The notes under the pieces: generated by a model | What the model was told of the DNA's origin: nothing | Databases searched by the model: none | The model's input: only the letters and a program-made list of their open reading frames with translations | Shown here: in pieces, positions 23,252 through 42,853 of the stretch | Numbering within the stretch: the stretch's first letter is position 1 | Layout of the letters: the number at the start of each line of letters is the position of its first letter | Made by a program: the position numbers and the translations under genes | Source: Spirochaetae bacterium HGW-Spirochaetae-5 | GTDB taxonomy: Bacteria; Spirochaetota; UBA4802; UBA5550 | Reading direction: 5' to 3' | Assembly: GCA_002839285.1 (NCBI GenBank) | Contig: PGXT01000054.1 | Span: 15,596 to 58,448, forward strand | Length of the DNA stretch: 42,853 nucleotides

Positions 23252-24610
23252 ATGACAACTGATAATGAAATGAAAATAAAAGGTTTAAAAATCCCCGAAG
23301 AGTTTTACGACCGGTTGAGCGACTTCATCAACACCTTCAATAAGAACGGTTATGAATGTTACCTCATCGGCGGTTGTGTCCGTGACCTTATTCTCGGTTA
23401 CGAGATATATGATTACGACTTTGCTACAAATGCACGACCGGAACAGGTGATGAAACTTTTCCGTGTTAAAGGACTTGAGTTTGAGGTTACAACTTTCCGG
23501 TCTGACGGCACATATCTCGATGGAAGACGTCCTGAGCAGATTCATTATGCCGAATCGCTAGATGAAGATGTTATGCGGAGAGATTTTACAATCAACGGCC
23601 TTGCCTATGATTTCAAAAAAAATGAAGTCATTGATCACGTAGGGGGTCTTGAAGATCTGAACAATGGGATTATCCGGACAATTGGAGATCCAATTGAAAG
23701 GTTCAGCGAAGACGGTCTCCGGACATTCAGAGCCTGCAGATTTTCAGCAAAACTCGGATTTGAAATTGAAGAGAGGACATTTGAAGCTATAGGTGAAACT
23801 CTAAACATCTCGGCAATGGTCTCTGCTGAAAGAGTCCGGGAGGAGCTGATGAAGCTTCTTACTTCAGGACTTCCATCTGTGGGATTCGAGTGCATGAGAA
23901 AATCCGGTCTTCTTAAACTCTGGCTGCCCGAACTCGACAGCTGTTATGATATAGATCAGAATAAATTTCATGTGCATGATATATACTATCATAGTCTTTA
24001 TTCCTGCGATGCGGCACCATCGGATAAACCTCTTATACGTCTTGCAGCACTCTTTCATGACATAGGAAAATTAAACACCAGACGTGTAGGTGACGATGGG
24101 GATTATACTTTTTATAATCATGAAGTTATAGGTTCGCGTCTTGTGAAAAAGATTATGAAAAGACTTAAATTTTCAAATGCAGAGATTGAAGCTGTTAATA
24201 ATCTTGTAATTAACCATATGTTTCACTACACCGATGACTGGAGTGACGGGGCTGTTCGAAGATTCATGAGAAAAGTAGGTGTTGAAAACATTTCCGATCT
24301 GTTTATACTTCGCGAAGCTGACAGAATCGGAAACGGTTCACGTTCGGGACTTCCGCAGCCCATTATGGTGCTTCAGTCCAGGATTGACCGTGTGATTGAA
24401 GCTGAAAACGCAATCACTGTAAGGGATCTGAATATAGACGGAAATATTCTTATGGCCAGGTTCAATCTTAAGCCCGGTCCCATTATCGGCAGAATACTTC
24501 ACGAGCTTCTTGAAATTGTTCTTGATCACCCCGATATGAACACAGAGGAGATTCTTCTGGATAAATCTTCTGAAATCTATAACCGCTTAAAAGAAGAGAA
24601 CCAGAGCTGA
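23252..24610 (+). CDS. cca: CCA tRNA nucleotidyltransferase (class II) with HD domain
   Basis: 452 residues. Class II nucleotidyltransferase that adds CCA (or part of it) to tRNA 3' ends. The catalytic head shows YLIGGCVRDLILG and YDYDFAT, followed by TTFRSDGTYLDGRRP and MRRDFTINGLAYD, which favour CCA addition over poly(A) polymerase. The neck includes RFSEDGLRTFRACRFSAKLG. An HD metal-binding domain follows (LAALFHDIGKL, and later NHMFHYTDDW). No ribosome site is clear at 23252; downstream in-frame ATGs at 23267-23275 are alternatives. Its last 24 bases overlap the 3' end of the converging barrel gene. Confidence 0.94.
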   Translation: MTTDNEMKIKGLKIPEEFYDRLSDFINTFNKNGYECYLIGGCVRDLILGYEIYDYDFATNARPEQVMKLFRVKGLEFEVTTFRSDGTYLDGRRPEQIHYAESLDEDVMRRDFTINGLAYDFKKNEVIDHVGGLEDLNNGIIRTIGDPIERFSEDGLRTFRACRFSAKLGFEIEERTFEAIGETLNISAMVSAERVREELMKLLTSGLPSVGFECMRKSGLLKLWLPELDSCYDIDQNKFHVHDIYYHSLYSCDAAPSDKPLIRLAALFHDIGKLNTRRVGDDGDYTFYNHEVIGSRLVKKIMKRLKFSNAEIEAVNNLVINHMFHYTDDWSDGAVRRFMRKVGVENISDLFILREADRIGNGSRSGLPQPIMVLQSRIDRVIEAENAITVRDLNIDGNILMARFNLKPGPIIGRILHELLEIVLDHPDMNTEEILLDKSSEIYNRLKEENQS

Positions 24611-37443: not shown

Positions 37444-37776
37444 ATGAATAACGATATTTTTAAAAGATTATTTGAAGTCATTGGTGAACGGAAAAAAGCC
37501 TCCCCTGAAAGTTCCTATGTGGCTAAACTGATGCATCGCGGAACTGAAAAAATCAACAGCAAAATAACAGAAGAGGCCGGAGAGGTCTGCGAAGCTGCCC
37601 TGGAAGATGATAAAGAGCACCTCGTTTATGAAATATGTGATCTCCTGTTCCATACTTTTGTACTTGCTTCACATAAAGATATAGTAATAGATGATATAAA
37701 GGCAGAATTTGAAAGACGGTTCGGAACAAGCGGACTTGCAGAGAAAGCCGGGAGAGATAAAAATGAATCTGAATGA
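37444..37776 (+). CDS. hisE: Phosphoribosyl-ATP pyrophosphatase
   Basis: 110 residues. HisE hydrolyses phosphoribosyl-ATP to phosphoribosyl-AMP, step two of histidine synthesis. Family signature: SYVAKLMHRGTEKINSKI, then EEAGEVCEAALEDDKEHLVYE and CDLLFHTFVLA, the all-alpha MazG-like fold with acidic metal-binding residues. The frame opens at a GTG at 37420, but ATG 37444 has AGGA at ideal spacing. It overlaps the hisG start by 14 bases and is a stand-alone HisE, not fused to HisI. Confidence 0.93.
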   Translation: MNNDIFKRLFEVIGERKKASPESSYVAKLMHRGTEKINSKITEEAGEVCEAALEDDKEHLVYEICDLLFHTFVLASHKDIVIDDIKAEFERRFGTSGLAEKAGRDKNESE

Positions 37777-38563
37777 AACTGATAGAATAAAATTCGCCCT
37801 TCCATCGAAGGGGCGCCTTAAAGACCCTACAATTGAACTGCTTAAAAAAGCCGGATTCAAGTTCAGGGCAACGGGTCGGAATCTTTACGCCACGTGCACC
37901 AACTATGACATTGTATTTATATTTGTAAGAGCTGACGATATCCCCGTGCTGGTTGAATCCGGAGTTATTGATCTTGGAATTACAGGAAGTGATTTAATTA
38001 TCGAAAGAAAAGCTCAAGTTGCAGAGATTCTACCCCTGGGTTATGGTCAGTGCCGGCTGTGTGTAGCAGTAAAGGAAGGATTTGAAAATGAGAGCCTTGA
38101 TTCCCTGAAGGGGAAAAATATTGCCACATCATTCCCGGTTATGACGCATGATTATTTTAAAAGAAACAATGTAGATGTCAACTGCATAGAAATGAACGGA
38201 TCTGTCGAGATAATGATTTTAAAGGTTTTCAAAGAGATCGGAGTTTATGAAACAACTCTTATCACAAAAAGAGAACTGGCCGATGACGAAAGAATTGTCA
38301 GAATAAAAAGAAGAATAGAAGGTGTGCTTGTAGCAAACCAGTACAGCATGCTTGAGTATAATATCAAAGAGAGTCTGCTTAAAAACGCGGAAAAGATCAC
38401 CCCCGGATTTAATTCCCCCACAATTTCAAGTCTCGATAAGGACGACTGGCTTTCTGTAAAAGTTATGGTTAAAAAATCCGAAGTGGTTCTTGTAATGGAT
38501 AAACTCGAAGCATTGGGAGCCACGGCAATAATTGAAACAGAGATAGTGAACTGCAGGCTGTAG
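37763..38563 (+). CDS. hisG: ATP phosphoribosyltransferase HisG (long form) lacking the PRPP-binding loop
   Basis: 266 residues from the ATG at 37763 (GGGAGAG upstream); long-form HisG is usually 284-300. The N-terminal half is normal (KFALPSKGRLKDPTIELL, GSDLIIERKAQVAEILPLGYGQCRL, IATSFPVMTHDYFKRN, CIEMNGSVEI), as is the C-terminal ACT-like regulatory domain (SVKVMVKKSEVVLVMDKLEA). Between EMNGSVEI (ending about residue 150) and MILKVFKEIG the expected segment AP..GLAD.I.D.V.TG.TL..N, which binds the PRPP phosphate, is missing: about 22-26 residues gone in frame at 38210-38218. As written the enzyme should be inactive. Operon with hisE. Confidence 0.85.
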   Translation: MNLNETDRIKFALPSKGRLKDPTIELLKKAGFKFRATGRNLYATCTNYDIVFIFVRADDIPVLVESGVIDLGITGSDLIIERKAQVAEILPLGYGQCRLCVAVKEGFENESLDSLKGKNIATSFPVMTHDYFKRNNVDVNCIEMNGSVEIMILKVFKEIGVYETTLITKRELADDERIVRIKRRIEGVLVANQYSMLEYNIKESLLKNAEKITPGFNSPTISSLDKDDWLSVKVMVKKSEVVLVMDKLEALGATAIIETEIVNCRL

Positions 38564-38792: not shown

Positions 38793-39326
38793 CTACAAAT
38801 CCATAGAAAATTTATCTCCACCGGAGGATGATTTAATCTGAAGAAATTTTAAATCTCCCCCGCAGGTGGGGCATTTCTGAACATCATCTCTTACCGGATA
38901 GTCGTTTCCGCAGAAAGGACATTTGTTCTGTACATATTTAAACTGAAACTCCGGGAAAATATAAAATGTTTCCCCGTCTCTCTGATCGGTCTTTGCAATT
39001 CTCTTTTTAATCATATCATTGATTTCATATATGACAATATCATTCCAGCCGGTTTCACCTTTTATGATATCTTTTGTGATTTCTCCGTGATGTTTTGCCG
39101 CGGCTTTCAATATTGCTTCACGTATAAGCTCTGGTCTCAGCACCATCCCTGAGCGGAACACTTTAAAACCGGAAATCAGCAAAGGGAGACCGGAGACGAA
39201 AAAAATTCCCGCTGCAATAAGACGTGAAGTCATCCCGGAGGCTGCTATTACAAAGAGCAGACCCATCAGCTCGGATACAAGTCCTGTAATAATCATGGCT
39301 GAACCTGTAATTATTTTAAAGGCCAT
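38793..39326 (-). CDS. Membrane-anchored zinc-ribbon protein (last gene of the putative RiPP operon)
   Basis: 177 residues. Two membrane spans occupy about 6-30 (TGSAMIITGLVSELMGLLF) and 34-54 (SRLIAAGIFFVSGLPLLISGF). A compact helical region follows (about 65-115, IREAILKAAAKHHGEITKDI) that looks like a winged-helix or PCI-like segment, then a C-terminal zinc ribbon, KCPFCGNDYP...KCPTCGGDLKF (about 135-161, two CxxC pairs). The ATG follows the upstream stop by one base, with AGGAG 11 bases before. The role is unknown; operon position suggests it serves the cysteine-repeat protein or its maturase. Confidence 0.75.
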   Translation of the reverse strand: MAFKIITGSAMIITGLVSELMGLLFVIAASGMTSRLIAAGIFFVSGLPLLISGFKVFRSGMVLRPELIREAILKAAAKHHGEITKDIIKGETGWNDIVIYEINDMIKKRIAKTDQRDGETFYIFPEFQFKYVQNKCPFCGNDYPVRDDVQKCPTCGGDLKFLQIKSSSGGDKFSMDL

Positions 39327-39327
39327 A

Positions 39328-40593
39328 TTACCACTGCTCCTTTGTTCTTTTATTCAGTTCATCACCCATGGCTGTAAAATAAGTTTCAATATTCTTTATT
39401 GTAAAAAGAGTTTCGGTCTCTTTTAACATCTTTGAAGCGAACTCAGCAGGATGAATACCTGAAAAATCGGTTTCCAGTTTTTTTTCAAGCTCTTTCAGGT
39501 GTCCGGCAAACTTCAATGATATTTCCGGAACGTCAATTTTTAACGTCGGGAGTTCTGAATAGGTATCTTCTGTTTTTTTTACATCTTTAACGCTTTTCAG
39601 GAAAGTGTTCATCCCTTCCTTTATTCCGCGGATCAGTGCAATGAAAGAGACCGATTGCTTAATCCCCTCAGTAAGCGACCGGAAGACTCTGTTTAGTTCA
39701 CCGGTTTCTATAAGACTACCCTCTATATCTTTCCTGTTATCGGAAAAGGGCTCTCCGCAGAAATCGCAGAAATAGATGTTCTTTTCATTTTTTGAAAAAC
39801 ACTTTCTGCATTTACCGGAACGTTTTGAATCCGATCCGGTAAAGAGAAACTTCTCATCTCCATGCAGTACCGCAAGAGTGTTTGAAAAGGCCGCTTTCTT
39901 TATAAGAATATCCATATCTGTTGTAAGATTCTGAATTTTTTCAGTAATCATGGAAAACTCGGTGTAAAGATTGTTCCAGTGATCACGGGCATTGCTGTCA
40001 AGTTCAAGGAGTTCTTTCTCTCTGGTTCCCCACTTTGTACGTACAGCTTCTATTGCAGAAAGGAGAGCATCTCTTTTTTTTAAAATAACTTCTTTTTCAT
40101 CTTCAATTTTTTTCATATTAAAAAAATTAGTTATAAATCCGAAACCTGTACTCAGCTCATCAATTTTCCTGTTGAAAACCGATATTTCATCTTCAAGAAG
40201 ATTTATCTCTGCTTTTATTTTCTCCTCTTTTTTATCAAGATCACTGTTTGTTTTTTTAAGGCTGGCGAAGTATGATAAACTGTTTTTACTTAATCCTTTA
40301 ATTTCACTATCGAGTTTTCCCTTCTGCTCTTCAAGTTTTATCAGATTCTGTTTAAATTTTTTCCCCTGCTCTATCAGGCTCTCTTTGTAAAGGTCTCTCA
40401 CTTCCTTCGGGAATTTTTCAGGATCTTTGAAAAACTCATCCTGAAGAAATTCAATCTCCGCTGTACGGACCTTGATTACATTATTGAAGTTGGTGTTAAA
40501 GTGAGCCTGGATTCTGTTCAGTTTTTCATCTATCTCTGATGCAGTTAAGATAGAAGTTTCAATAAACTCCACCATCCCCTTAAGAGTTCCCAT
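39328..40593 (-). CDS. Coiled-coil protein with central zinc ribbon
   Basis: 421 residues, no signal peptide or membrane span. Residues about 1-250 are strongly helical and rich in Lys/Glu (two long coiled-coil stretches, about 75-155 and 165-235, separated by a GFGFITNFFNM loop). A zinc ribbon follows: GKCRKCFSKNEKNIYFCDFCGEPF (about 263-286, two CxxC). The C-terminal 130 residues are helical again. No catalytic motif. Its ATG overlaps the stop of the radical SAM gene (TAATG), so the two are translationally coupled. A scaffold or partner for the modification complex is an inference from position only. Confidence 0.75.
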   Translation of the reverse strand: MGTLKGMVEFIETSILTASEIDEKLNRIQAHFNTNFNNVIKVRTAEIEFLQDEFFKDPEKFPKEVRDLYKESLIEQGKKFKQNLIKLEEQKGKLDSEIKGLSKNSLSYFASLKKTNSDLDKKEEKIKAEINLLEDEISVFNRKIDELSTGFGFITNFFNMKKIEDEKEVILKKRDALLSAIEAVRTKWGTREKELLELDSNARDHWNNLYTEFSMITEKIQNLTTDMDILIKKAAFSNTLAVLHGDEKFLFTGSDSKRSGKCRKCFSKNEKNIYFCDFCGEPFSDNRKDIEGSLIETGELNRVFRSLTEGIKQSVSFIALIRGIKEGMNTFLKSVKDVKKTEDTYSELPTLKIDVPEISLKFAGHLKELEKKLETDFSGIHPAEFASKMLKETETLFTIKNIETYFTAMGDELNKRTKEQW

Positions 40594-41914
40594 TATAATA
40601 CCTCCCCTGATGGTTCGACTCCATCGACACCCCTGGTTTTTAGACGCAATCTATTTTCAAGAGACCAGATGAAATTACCTGATCCTGCATTTTCCCAGTA
40701 GAGCGGACAGGCTCCCTTGCAGAGAATCTTCATGCTGCACTTTTTACAAACCGGCGGGATATATCTCTTCTCTCTGAAGTAGAGAGCTTCGTCGCTGTTC
40801 CATATTGAACTAAACGAACTCTTCAGCAGATTCCCTATCCCTTTGCTGTAGCTTGAACATGGGAGAACATCCCCGGCAGGGTTAATCGATAAGAGACCGG
40901 ATACGCAGGCGCATGACTTTGATCCGAGATTGTGATCTACCGGATTAAACATGCAGTATGGAGTAGGTGAATACCAGACGAATTTTATTCCGGTCTCTTC
41001 GCTGTATTTCAGTACAGGTTCGATGATAGATGAGATGGATGAGTATCCGATGTTTACATTCTCATTATCTTTTGCTATCCCCGTTGCGATAATCATATTC
41101 ATGGAGAGGTATTTTGCATCGAATTCATTTTTTACAAATTTTACAAGGGGGATAAGGTGATCTCTGTTCCATCTGCATATTGTAGTATTGGTGTGGGTAT
41201 GTATCCCGGCCTGTTTAAGATTATGTATTGCAGCAACGGTATTTTTGTACGCGCTGCTGTTCCCGGTTATACGGTTATGAAGAAGTTCATCGTGTGATTC
41301 AAGGCTGACCTGTGCGGAATGAAGTCCAGCTCCGGCAAATTTTTTTACAAGCTCTTTATCCGATGATCTTACTCCGTTGGTTATCAGGTTTGTTCTCATC
41401 CCTTTTTTTACTGCGTATTCTATAAGTTCAGGGAGGTCATTCCGCTTTTATCTATAATCAGCTTTATCTGGTCAACTGTCATCTCTTTGAAGTCATCACC
41501 GCGGTAAGGGCTTGAGGCGTAGCAGAAGTCGCATCTGTTCTGGCACTTATATGTAACTGCAATCTCCGAGAGAACAGGAAATTTTATACTGTCGGGATTA
41601 TAATCGATTACAGATATATTTGTGGCTGATTTGTAATCATCGTTCATAACTGCACTTAACGATTTTACTATTCCAGTGAGATCATTTAATATAACATTTT
41701 TAGCTGTACCATATTTACTGTTTATGTAATCGACTGTCACGGCTGCTCCTGCTTTTTTCTCATAGAGAGAGTAAAGCATCTCAAAACCGGTACTGTTCAG
41801 ATGCTGAATTCTGTCGGGTCTGATAATCAGCAGGGAATCCTCCTGACGCAGATAAATGACCTCCGATGTTCCGGCTACGAAAGAGTCTATTTCACGTAAA
41901 ATTTCACTATTCAT
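40593..41914 (-). pseudogene. PqqD-like/radical SAM/SPASM peptide maturase, interrupted at the GGEP region
   Basis: Frame one (41914 to 41420) starts MNSEILREIDSF, with AGGA eight bases upstream. It contains a PqqD-like RiPP recognition domain (about 15-100: VIYLRQEDSLLIIRPDRIQH and LNSTGFEMLYSL) and the radical SAM cluster motif CQNRCDFC. It stops shortly after MTVDQIKLIIDKSGMTSLNL. Frame two (about 41441 to 40593) resumes with NDLPELIEYAVKKGMRTNLI and continues through the TIM-barrel to a complete SPASM domain (C-x-C, then CSSYSKGIGN..., and CKKCSMKILCKGAC near the end). The GGEP motif that should join them is absent, and the frame shifts. Both frames read sensibly over the junction 41420-41442, as after deletion between similar short sequences. 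Couples to the downstream coiled-coil gene. Confidence 0.85.
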
Positions 41915-41923
41915 GTTTATATC

Positions 41924-42853
41924 CTAAAAGCTCGACACGCAGGCAGAGTGACAGGCCGAGTGGCAAGCCGAGTGTACACATGCCGAGTGGCAAGCCGAAT
42001 GGCACGCCGAGTGTACACATGCAGAGTGACAGGCCGAATGGCATGCCGAGTGACATGCATCGTAACTGAATGATGAAATGTTCTCTATACCCGATGCCGC
42101 AGCGGATTCCGCAGCCTTGATGTCGGGCTGTTTGAAAAGAGATTCCACATTTTCAACTATTGAGGCTGAAAAATTTTCCACATTTTCAACTATACCTTCG
42201 GCAAAATCTTTTAAGCCCTCCGCGGCAGATCCCCCCTGATCTGCAATTTTACTGAAAAAACCTGCGGGATCACCGGGGACAGGTGAAGCGGGAATAATAC
42301 TTCCGGCATATTTTTCCGGATCTGAAGTAAATGTATCATTGATAATAATCCATCCGGAATTGCCGCTGAAATAATCTTTCCGTTTATCAGGAGAGGATGC
42401 TGTAAAATCCCTCCAGTGCCGGTCAATTTTCTCTGTATAAAGTTCAGCCGTTTTCTCAATATCTCCTTTCCAGATTTTTGACTGAAGTGATTTCCCTGTG
42501 CTTTTAAGTATCAGAGGTATTTTTCTTTTATCCAGTGTGCCGTCAGAGGCAATGGATAATATAAACTGTTTTTCGTAAGGAGTAAGATCCTCCCCTTCAG
42601 ATTTGATAACGGCAACCTGAAGCGGATTGCGGTTAAGAATATCTATGTACCCCCTGTTGAACAAATCCATTACTATAAGTGCTATACTTTTTGACGGTTT
42701 GTTTAGAAACATTGCGGCTTCAACAGGATTTAGATTTTCTATTATCTCACCTGTTCTGAAGGTCTCTATCTGTATCTCCGGCGCTATATATTCAGGTTTC
42801 TTTTCGAAGCGTTTTTTAATAGATGGGTGAATTTTCAGAATCATCAGCAGAAG
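41924..42853 (-). CDS. Cysteine-repeat protein, candidate modified substrate (5' end beyond window)
   Basis: At least 306 residues from the ATG at 42844; the frame remains open to the window edge (LLL before it), so the true start is probably upstream, after a membrane segment. The N-terminal part resembles the cytoplasmic domain of DUF2207/TIGR04222-type membrane proteins: LNPVEAAMFLNKPSKSIALI, VMDLFNRGYIDI, EDLTPYEKQFILSI. A low-complexity linker with two copies of (S/A)IVENVE(S/N) follows. The tail (about 262-306) is DAC, then three times HSACHSACHSACV, then SSF: ten Cys, nine HSAC units. Its stop codon overlaps the ribosome site of the radical SAM gene. TIGR04222-type proteins commonly end in Cys-rich low-complexity tails; modification is inferred from context. 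Confidence 0.8.
   Translation of the reverse strand, partial: LLLMILKIHPSIKKRFEKKPEYIAPEIQIETFRTGEIIENLNPVEAAMFLNKPSKSIALIVMDLFNRGYIDILNRNPLQVAVIKSEGEDLTPYEKQFILSIASDGTLDKRKIPLILKSTGKSLQSKIWKGDIEKTAELYTEKIDRHWRDFTASSPDKRKDYFSGNSGWIIINDTFTSDPEKYAGSIIPASPVPGDPAGFFSKIADQGGSAAEGLKDFAEGIVENVENFSASIVENVESLFKQPDIKAAESAAASGIENISSFSYDACHSACHSACHSACVHSACHSACHSACVHSACHSACHSACVSSF
41936..42061 (-). repeat. HSAC-encoding tandem repeat (three 39-bp blocks)
   Basis: Encodes DAC followed by three identical 13-residue blocks (HSAC, HSAC, HSAC, V). Codons vary at synonymous sites: His CAC/CAT, Ser TCG/TCT, Ala GCA/GCC/GCG/GCT, Cys TGC/TGT. The peptide is perfectly periodic while the DNA is not, which indicates selection on the amino-acid repeat. 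Confidence 0.9.

Follow-up and report, generated by a model that had tools for sequence, protein, structure and literature searches.

The enzymes closest in fold to the maturase considered here are the RiPP maturases SuiB, SkfB and CteB (PDB 5v1q, 6efn and 5why), which act on a short peptide; PDB 5wgg is likewise CteB. The ACGX system has a radical-SAM/SPASM maturase (NCBIfam TIGR04340) whose name is tied to a tetrapeptide motif, presumably one of Ala-Cys repeats. A different class of enzyme comes into play with the TIGR04222 membrane proteins, which end in a Cys-rich, low-complexity C-terminus; according to the available part of PMC12452194, MNIO enzymes are proposed to act on the members that bear Cys-rich tails, which are predicted to lie in the periplasm. 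The radical-SAM enzyme PapB, of the ranthipeptide freyrasin, acts on repeated Cys motifs and cross-links Cys-X3-Asp/Glu, as set out in the accessible text of PMC9413430.

The locus analyzed here comes from a draft genome of 309 contigs and 4.7 Mb (95% complete, 3.4% contaminated), which we infer from its fragmentation and its named relatives to be metagenome-assembled. The window, by which we mean the whole 42,853-nt stretch of DNA under analysis, is G000:C66:15596-58448; contig C66 is 58448 bases long, hence the end of the window is the end of the contig. Four adjoining genes on the minus strand close it: those for a tail-bearing membrane protein, a radical-SAM protein, a coiled-coil protein and a zinc-ribbon protein. 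Our reading, to which we assign a probability of about 0.7, is that the radical-SAM gene encodes an RRE/radical-SAM/SPASM maturase that carries an assembly deletion, and that the intact enzyme would dock on the neighboring protein and modify its tail. The maturase–tail system, not the break in the gene, is the interesting part; the break is most likely no real feature.

An intact ortholog was modeled (pLDDT 85, from a 41-sequence alignment). The model runs from an N-terminal helix through three strands and three helices to the radical-SAM core and a SPASM region, and the structures it matches best include those of SuiB, SkfB and CteB. With these enzymes the ortholog has in common the fold, the domain order, the N-terminal arrangement of helix, three strands and three helices, and the CX3CX2C and SPASM cysteines, at 14–18% identity in the best rows. 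Sequence matches in the PDB were to SkfB (6.8e-31), PqqE (2.2e-30) and CteB (6.5e-17). The N-terminal region is a candidate RRE, judging by the helix and strand layout of the model and the near-full-length match of the model to SuiB; it gave no Pfam PqqD hit at E <= 0.01. The locus departs from SuiB, SkfB and CteB in its presumed substrate: instead of a short peptide, a large membrane protein would be modified at its tail. The locus differs from the ACGX system in its repeat, which is ACHS, and the intact ortholog scores 80.4 bits against TIGR04340, below the cut-off of 400; among the matches listed for the intact maturase, no NCBIfam radical-SAM model reaches its curated cut-off.

The tail-bearing proteins share the Cys-rich C-terminus of the TIGR04222 family, which they resemble weakly, as they do DUF2207 proteins; four of the five scanned match it in the same region, scoring 17.2, 17.5, 22.8 and 25.3 bits where the cut-off is 43, and the fifth (L185) gives no hit. 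They depart from that family in two respects: the partner enzyme is radical-SAM rather than the MNIO proposed there, and the tail is likelier cytoplasmic than periplasmic. The available part of PMC12452194 describes neither a radical-SAM partner (the term occurs in its references only) nor such a repeat. The four-residue spacing of the Cys motifs recalls PapB, a likeness of motif spacing alone; the acceptor of PapB is Asp or Glu (PMC9413430, in the text available), whereas in the CHSA tail this position is mostly taken by a further Cys. The literature searched, which lacked most subscription journals, yielded no description of a CHSA/ACHS tail, and it is in this provisional sense that the maturase–tail system is apparently undescribed.

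As assembled, the maturase gene occupies two frames. A minus-strand ORF (41914-41420, 164 aa) containing CQNRCDFC finishes ...IIDKSGMTSLNL-stop, and the other frame gives NDLPELIEYAVKKGMRTNLITNG and continues to 40593, the mechanical ORF of this second piece being 41399-40593. Neither piece contains GGEP. The first (41447..41914, minus strand), which comprises the RRE-like N-terminal region and the CX3CX2C motif up to IIDK, is 52% identical to residues 2–156 of an intact 467-aa ortholog and matches Pfam Radical_SAM at 1.7e-4, under the curated cut-off. The second (40593..41444, minus strand), with the remaining radical-SAM core and SPASM, is 74% identical to residues 176–466 of the same protein and matches Radical_SAM at 2.3e-9 and SPASM at 2.9e-12 (PF13186, 47.1 bits; cut-off 21.5). 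Because of these Pfam matches and the identity of both pieces to parts of one intact protein, their pairing is beyond chance. When 59 genomes (the source genome and 58 relatives) were searched with the second piece, orthologs at 63–74% identity were found in five members of the same family, and all five are one uninterrupted, single-frame protein. At the site of the break these read DK-I..[ED]AxVPTISFTGGEPTL-R-.DLPELI; the window has IIDK, two leftover bases (41445-41446, minus strand), then RNDLPELI (RNDLPELIEYAVKKGMRTNLITNG). In the place of these two bases the orthologs carry 19 codons (I..EAxVPTISFTGGEPTL), which leaves the window a net 55 nt shorter and shifts the frame. A second copy of the maturase was considered and rejected, as the intact ortholog matches only the two broken pieces and distant radical-SAM genes in this genome; a DNA search of the genome returned the window itself as the sole match. 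The same gene lacks a further 42 nt, in frame, at 40679/40680 (minus strand), where the orthologs carry 14 residues after WENAGS. This second loss had escaped the initial annotation of the window.

That annotation had recognized a radical-SAM gene split in two frames with GGEP in neither, and the ORFs, the Pfam matches and the five orthologs bear it out. Comparison with sibling genomes, which it suggested as a check, agrees, the GGEP segment being kept in a single frame in all five. Its description of the maturase as dead as written follows by inference for the given sequence, which has a frame change and no SAM-binding GGEP. It placed the feature at 41420-41442; the break is close by, and the junction itself lies just outside this range. 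The roughly 20 bases that it credited with two readings do give both, simply as two frames of one stretch. DKSGMTSLNL, however, is not the usual lead-in to GGEP that it was taken for: the five orthologs have I..[ED]AxVPTISFTGGEPTLR, and reading the downstream segment out of frame is what yields SGMTSLNL. The proposal that the deletion arose between short sequences resembling each other finds no support in relatives: where these are intact, no consistent direct repeat flanks the break positions. Single relatives reach 6–7 nt, in a check whose pattern missed three of six tRNA nucleotidyltransferase loci and to which the window's own lost segment is inaccessible.

When C66 was compared with G002:C30, a contig from a family member that shares part of its gene order, losses came to light in two genes outside the system. 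The hisG gene (37709..38563, plus strand) is without 22 conserved residues, ALNLARAIVDIVETGDSLRDND in G002 (66 nt, in frame, at 38218/38219). It was matched in 43 of 44 genomes; the genome's own match alone is broken in two pieces, around residues 153–174, and the matches are unbroken in all 42 matched relatives. The gene for tRNA nucleotidyltransferase (23252..24610, plus strand), an essential enzyme, is without 15 residues around TGxxHGTVTV, RVVPTGVKHGTVTVL in G002 (45 nt, in frame, at 23464/23465). It too was matched in 43 of 44 genomes, once only in its own, and the TGxxHGT segment is kept in six of the six relatives listed. On contig C186, a radical-SAM/SPASM gene resembling heme-type enzymes (L043:7767-8755) is likewise split in two frames: of 12 loci tried, 10 homologs align, each as two segments that lie in different frames, with a jump of about 19–24 residues and 2 to 11 bases left between the pieces. 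The fraction of invariant positions is 0.79 in the lost GGEP stretch versus 0.44 in the whole maturase gene, 0.77 versus 0.43 for hisG, and 0.60 versus 0.38 for tRNA nucleotidyltransferase (14 of 19 loci usable). For the second maturase loss, at the tail end of the gene, the values are 0.43 and 0.44, so this stretch is not unusually conserved.

Losses were then counted across 604 kb of the genome's own DNA and 786 kb of DNA from relatives, with partners required to be at least 55% identical. This gave 82 ORFs of relatives with a partner, covering 66.9 kb of own DNA. Internal losses of at least 10 aa in own genes number only four, namely the two in the maturase and those in hisG and tRNA nucleotidyltransferase. 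In the reverse survey (65 own ORFs, 66.0 kb), the relatives show no internal loss of at least 10 aa; a 10-aa gap in o_L120, situated at the edge of a gene and containing a stop, was not scored as a relative's loss. All four losses are on C66, against none in the roughly 35 kb compared on other contigs, so errors would not be uniform along the genome. At a looser 45% identity, gaps of 8–14 aa also occur in relatives, in poorly conserved proteins, and own contig C14 shows one 9-aa gap. The gene for the putative substrate is itself divided between contigs, with residues 10–473 at the end of C14 (5503-6894 of 6899; L042) and residues 607–918 at the end of C66. Residues 474–606 (about 133) were not found, and the ends of C14 and C66 have no exact overlap. 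The part in the window (41924..42853, minus strand) is an ORF, truncated where the contig stops, for the C-terminal 309 aa of a membrane protein that bears a Cys/His repeat tail. The substrate tail had been called perfect; this is right for the C-terminus and does not extend to the gene as a whole, the N-terminus of which is on another contig.

Judged from these sequence comparisons, the missing GGEP segment is very probably an assembly deletion and not a loss in the organism. What favors this reading is that like losses affect hisG and the only tRNA nucleotidyltransferase match in the same window and that the radical-SAM gene on C186 is similarly split; essential genes without core segments, together with a contig gap inside the neighboring gene, also point to assembly. 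Metagenome assemblers can misassemble strain mixtures, according to the part of PMC8021871 available. Between the two outcomes first envisaged, a system just lost or a sequence in error, the balance falls on the sequence, and loss is less favored since housekeeping genes carry similar losses. An assembly deletion is, in our assessment, much likelier than decay. A real, recent deletion, with the maturase decaying in the strain or in part of the population while the substrate gene is still intact, would account for the frame change and for two losses falling in a single gene, as in a young pseudogene, and we regard it as improbable. A pseudogene among intact housekeeping neighbors is not what was found: hisG and the only tRNA nucleotidyltransferase match are without conserved segments alike, the latter being a gene that cannot be lost. 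Nor is relaxed constraint seen in the maturase past the break. Past the junction, the fraction of differences from an ortholog is 0.20 at first, 0.13 at second and 0.60 at third codon positions, which is the pattern of a constrained gene, although a very recent loss would look alike and is compatible with it.

A deletion-prone region, with real losses on C66, must still be allowed for. Recoding, by contrast, can be set aside as having next to no likelihood. Programmed frameshifting or ribosome bypassing might join two open, conserved pieces that lie two bases apart into one working protein, but the GGEP segment is not in the DNA, so the joined frames cannot restore it; moreover, the five orthologs are all single-frame and the genome holds no second copy. 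An assembly deletion remains the preferred explanation. The break calls for caution: taken at face value, the draft would lead one to declare the system dead, or hisG and tRNA nucleotidyltransferase lost, although the assembly is more likely at fault.

The wider family was collected with a profile of the five orthologs, run on GTDB with one genome per species. It retrieved 51 loci, 35 at 43–100% identity and 16 at 28–38%. In 30 of the 35 first-group loci, an ORF with a CHSA tail lies near the maturase, upstream except in L158. Among the loci that lack it, L152, L156 and L166 have a contig edge no more than about 360 nt from the maturase, and the precursor of L164 runs off the contig; L171 is a true exception, with the maturase and both accessory genes and no tail-bearing gene in the 5 kb upstream. 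The accessory genes are the third and fourth of the operon. The third (39328..40593, minus strand, an ORF) encodes a 421-aa coiled-coil protein with CxxC motifs, a homolog of which is beside 33 of the 35 group maturases; the fourth (38793..39326, minus strand) encodes a 177-aa protein with a hydrophobic N-terminus and a zinc-ribbon motif (Pfam Zn_ribbon_3 at 1.6e-4, under the cut-off), with homologs beside 28 of the 35. Host MAGs of the CHSA group are labeled Spirochaetes, Chloroflexi, Myxococcales, Polyangiaceae, Deltaproteobacteria, Riflebacteria and Thermoproteota. The sister group has an ORF with a tail of (CA)n-GGGR type in all 16 loci (L181-L196), from Acidobacteria, Aminicenantes and archaeal MAGs, the archaeal hosts being mostly Methanomassiliicoccales; neither accessory gene of the CHSA group has a match in these 16 loci. 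Gene order varies as well: in L158 and L164, from MAGs labeled Thermoproteota, the putative substrate gene comes after the maturase and coiled-coil genes, not before them.

The tail consists of near-invariant ACHS repeats at the C-terminus of the membrane protein. Over the last 38 positions, the mean frequency of the top residue is 0.95 (25 tail-bearing proteins), compared with 0.32–0.60 in the other blocks with enough sequences. The model of the substrate (pLDDT 77.7, pTM 0.42) has an N-terminal helix, beta domains and a further folded region; helices 514–536, 538–560 and 587–614 fit membrane spans, and the tail, from residue 864, has a pLDDT below 50. In hydropathy profiles, several Lys/Arg residues follow the last membrane segment in most members, which argues that the tail is probably cytoplasmic and reachable by the enzyme, within the limits of a crude hydropathy prediction.

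The tail is a good candidate for the substrate of the maturase, and we hold this assignment to be probable. The N-terminal domain of the intact enzyme would dock on the neighboring membrane protein, and the enzyme would modify the ACHS tetrapeptide repeats of its C-terminal tail, in all likelihood from the cytoplasm; the likeliest chemistry would be radical-based and alter the recurring Cys residues, for instance by forming a thioether cross-link. Docking and modification are suggested because the tail is probably cytoplasmic, within the enzyme's reach; the particular docking and chemistry are tentative. The Cys/His tail could instead be unmodified and bind metal, with the adjoining radical-SAM enzyme acting elsewhere. 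Such a role would suit a dense Cys/His array next to genes (the third and fourth) that encode CxxC or zinc-ribbon-like motifs, yet it is unlikely given the linkage of maturase and tail in 30/35 loci, the change of tail type with maturase clade in the sister group (16/16 loci) and the resemblance of the maturase fold to peptide maturases. There is about an even chance that the locus represents an undescribed system, in which an RRE-like radical-SAM/SPASM enzyme modifies an ACHS or (CA)n-GGGR tail at the cytoplasmic end of a membrane protein and so produces a metal- or cofactor-binding tail that is kept on the protein and not released as a peptide. The tail stays near-unchanging in several phyla even as the remainder of the protein diverges, and almost every time its own maturase is encoded next to it. 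This makes it a strong lead to a membrane protein with a new kind of modification, and the intact orthologs, such as that of Spirochaetia bacterium UBA5763 (DIEX01000015.1), provide testable members of the system.

The three cysteines of the CX3CX2C cluster are invariant in 41 of 41 aligned relatives. Literal GGEP is present in 46 of the 51 related loci, the others being L172, L177, L165, L176 and L196 (a fragment). L172 and L177, from Deltaproteobacteria and Riflebacteria MAGs, have GGEA in its place.
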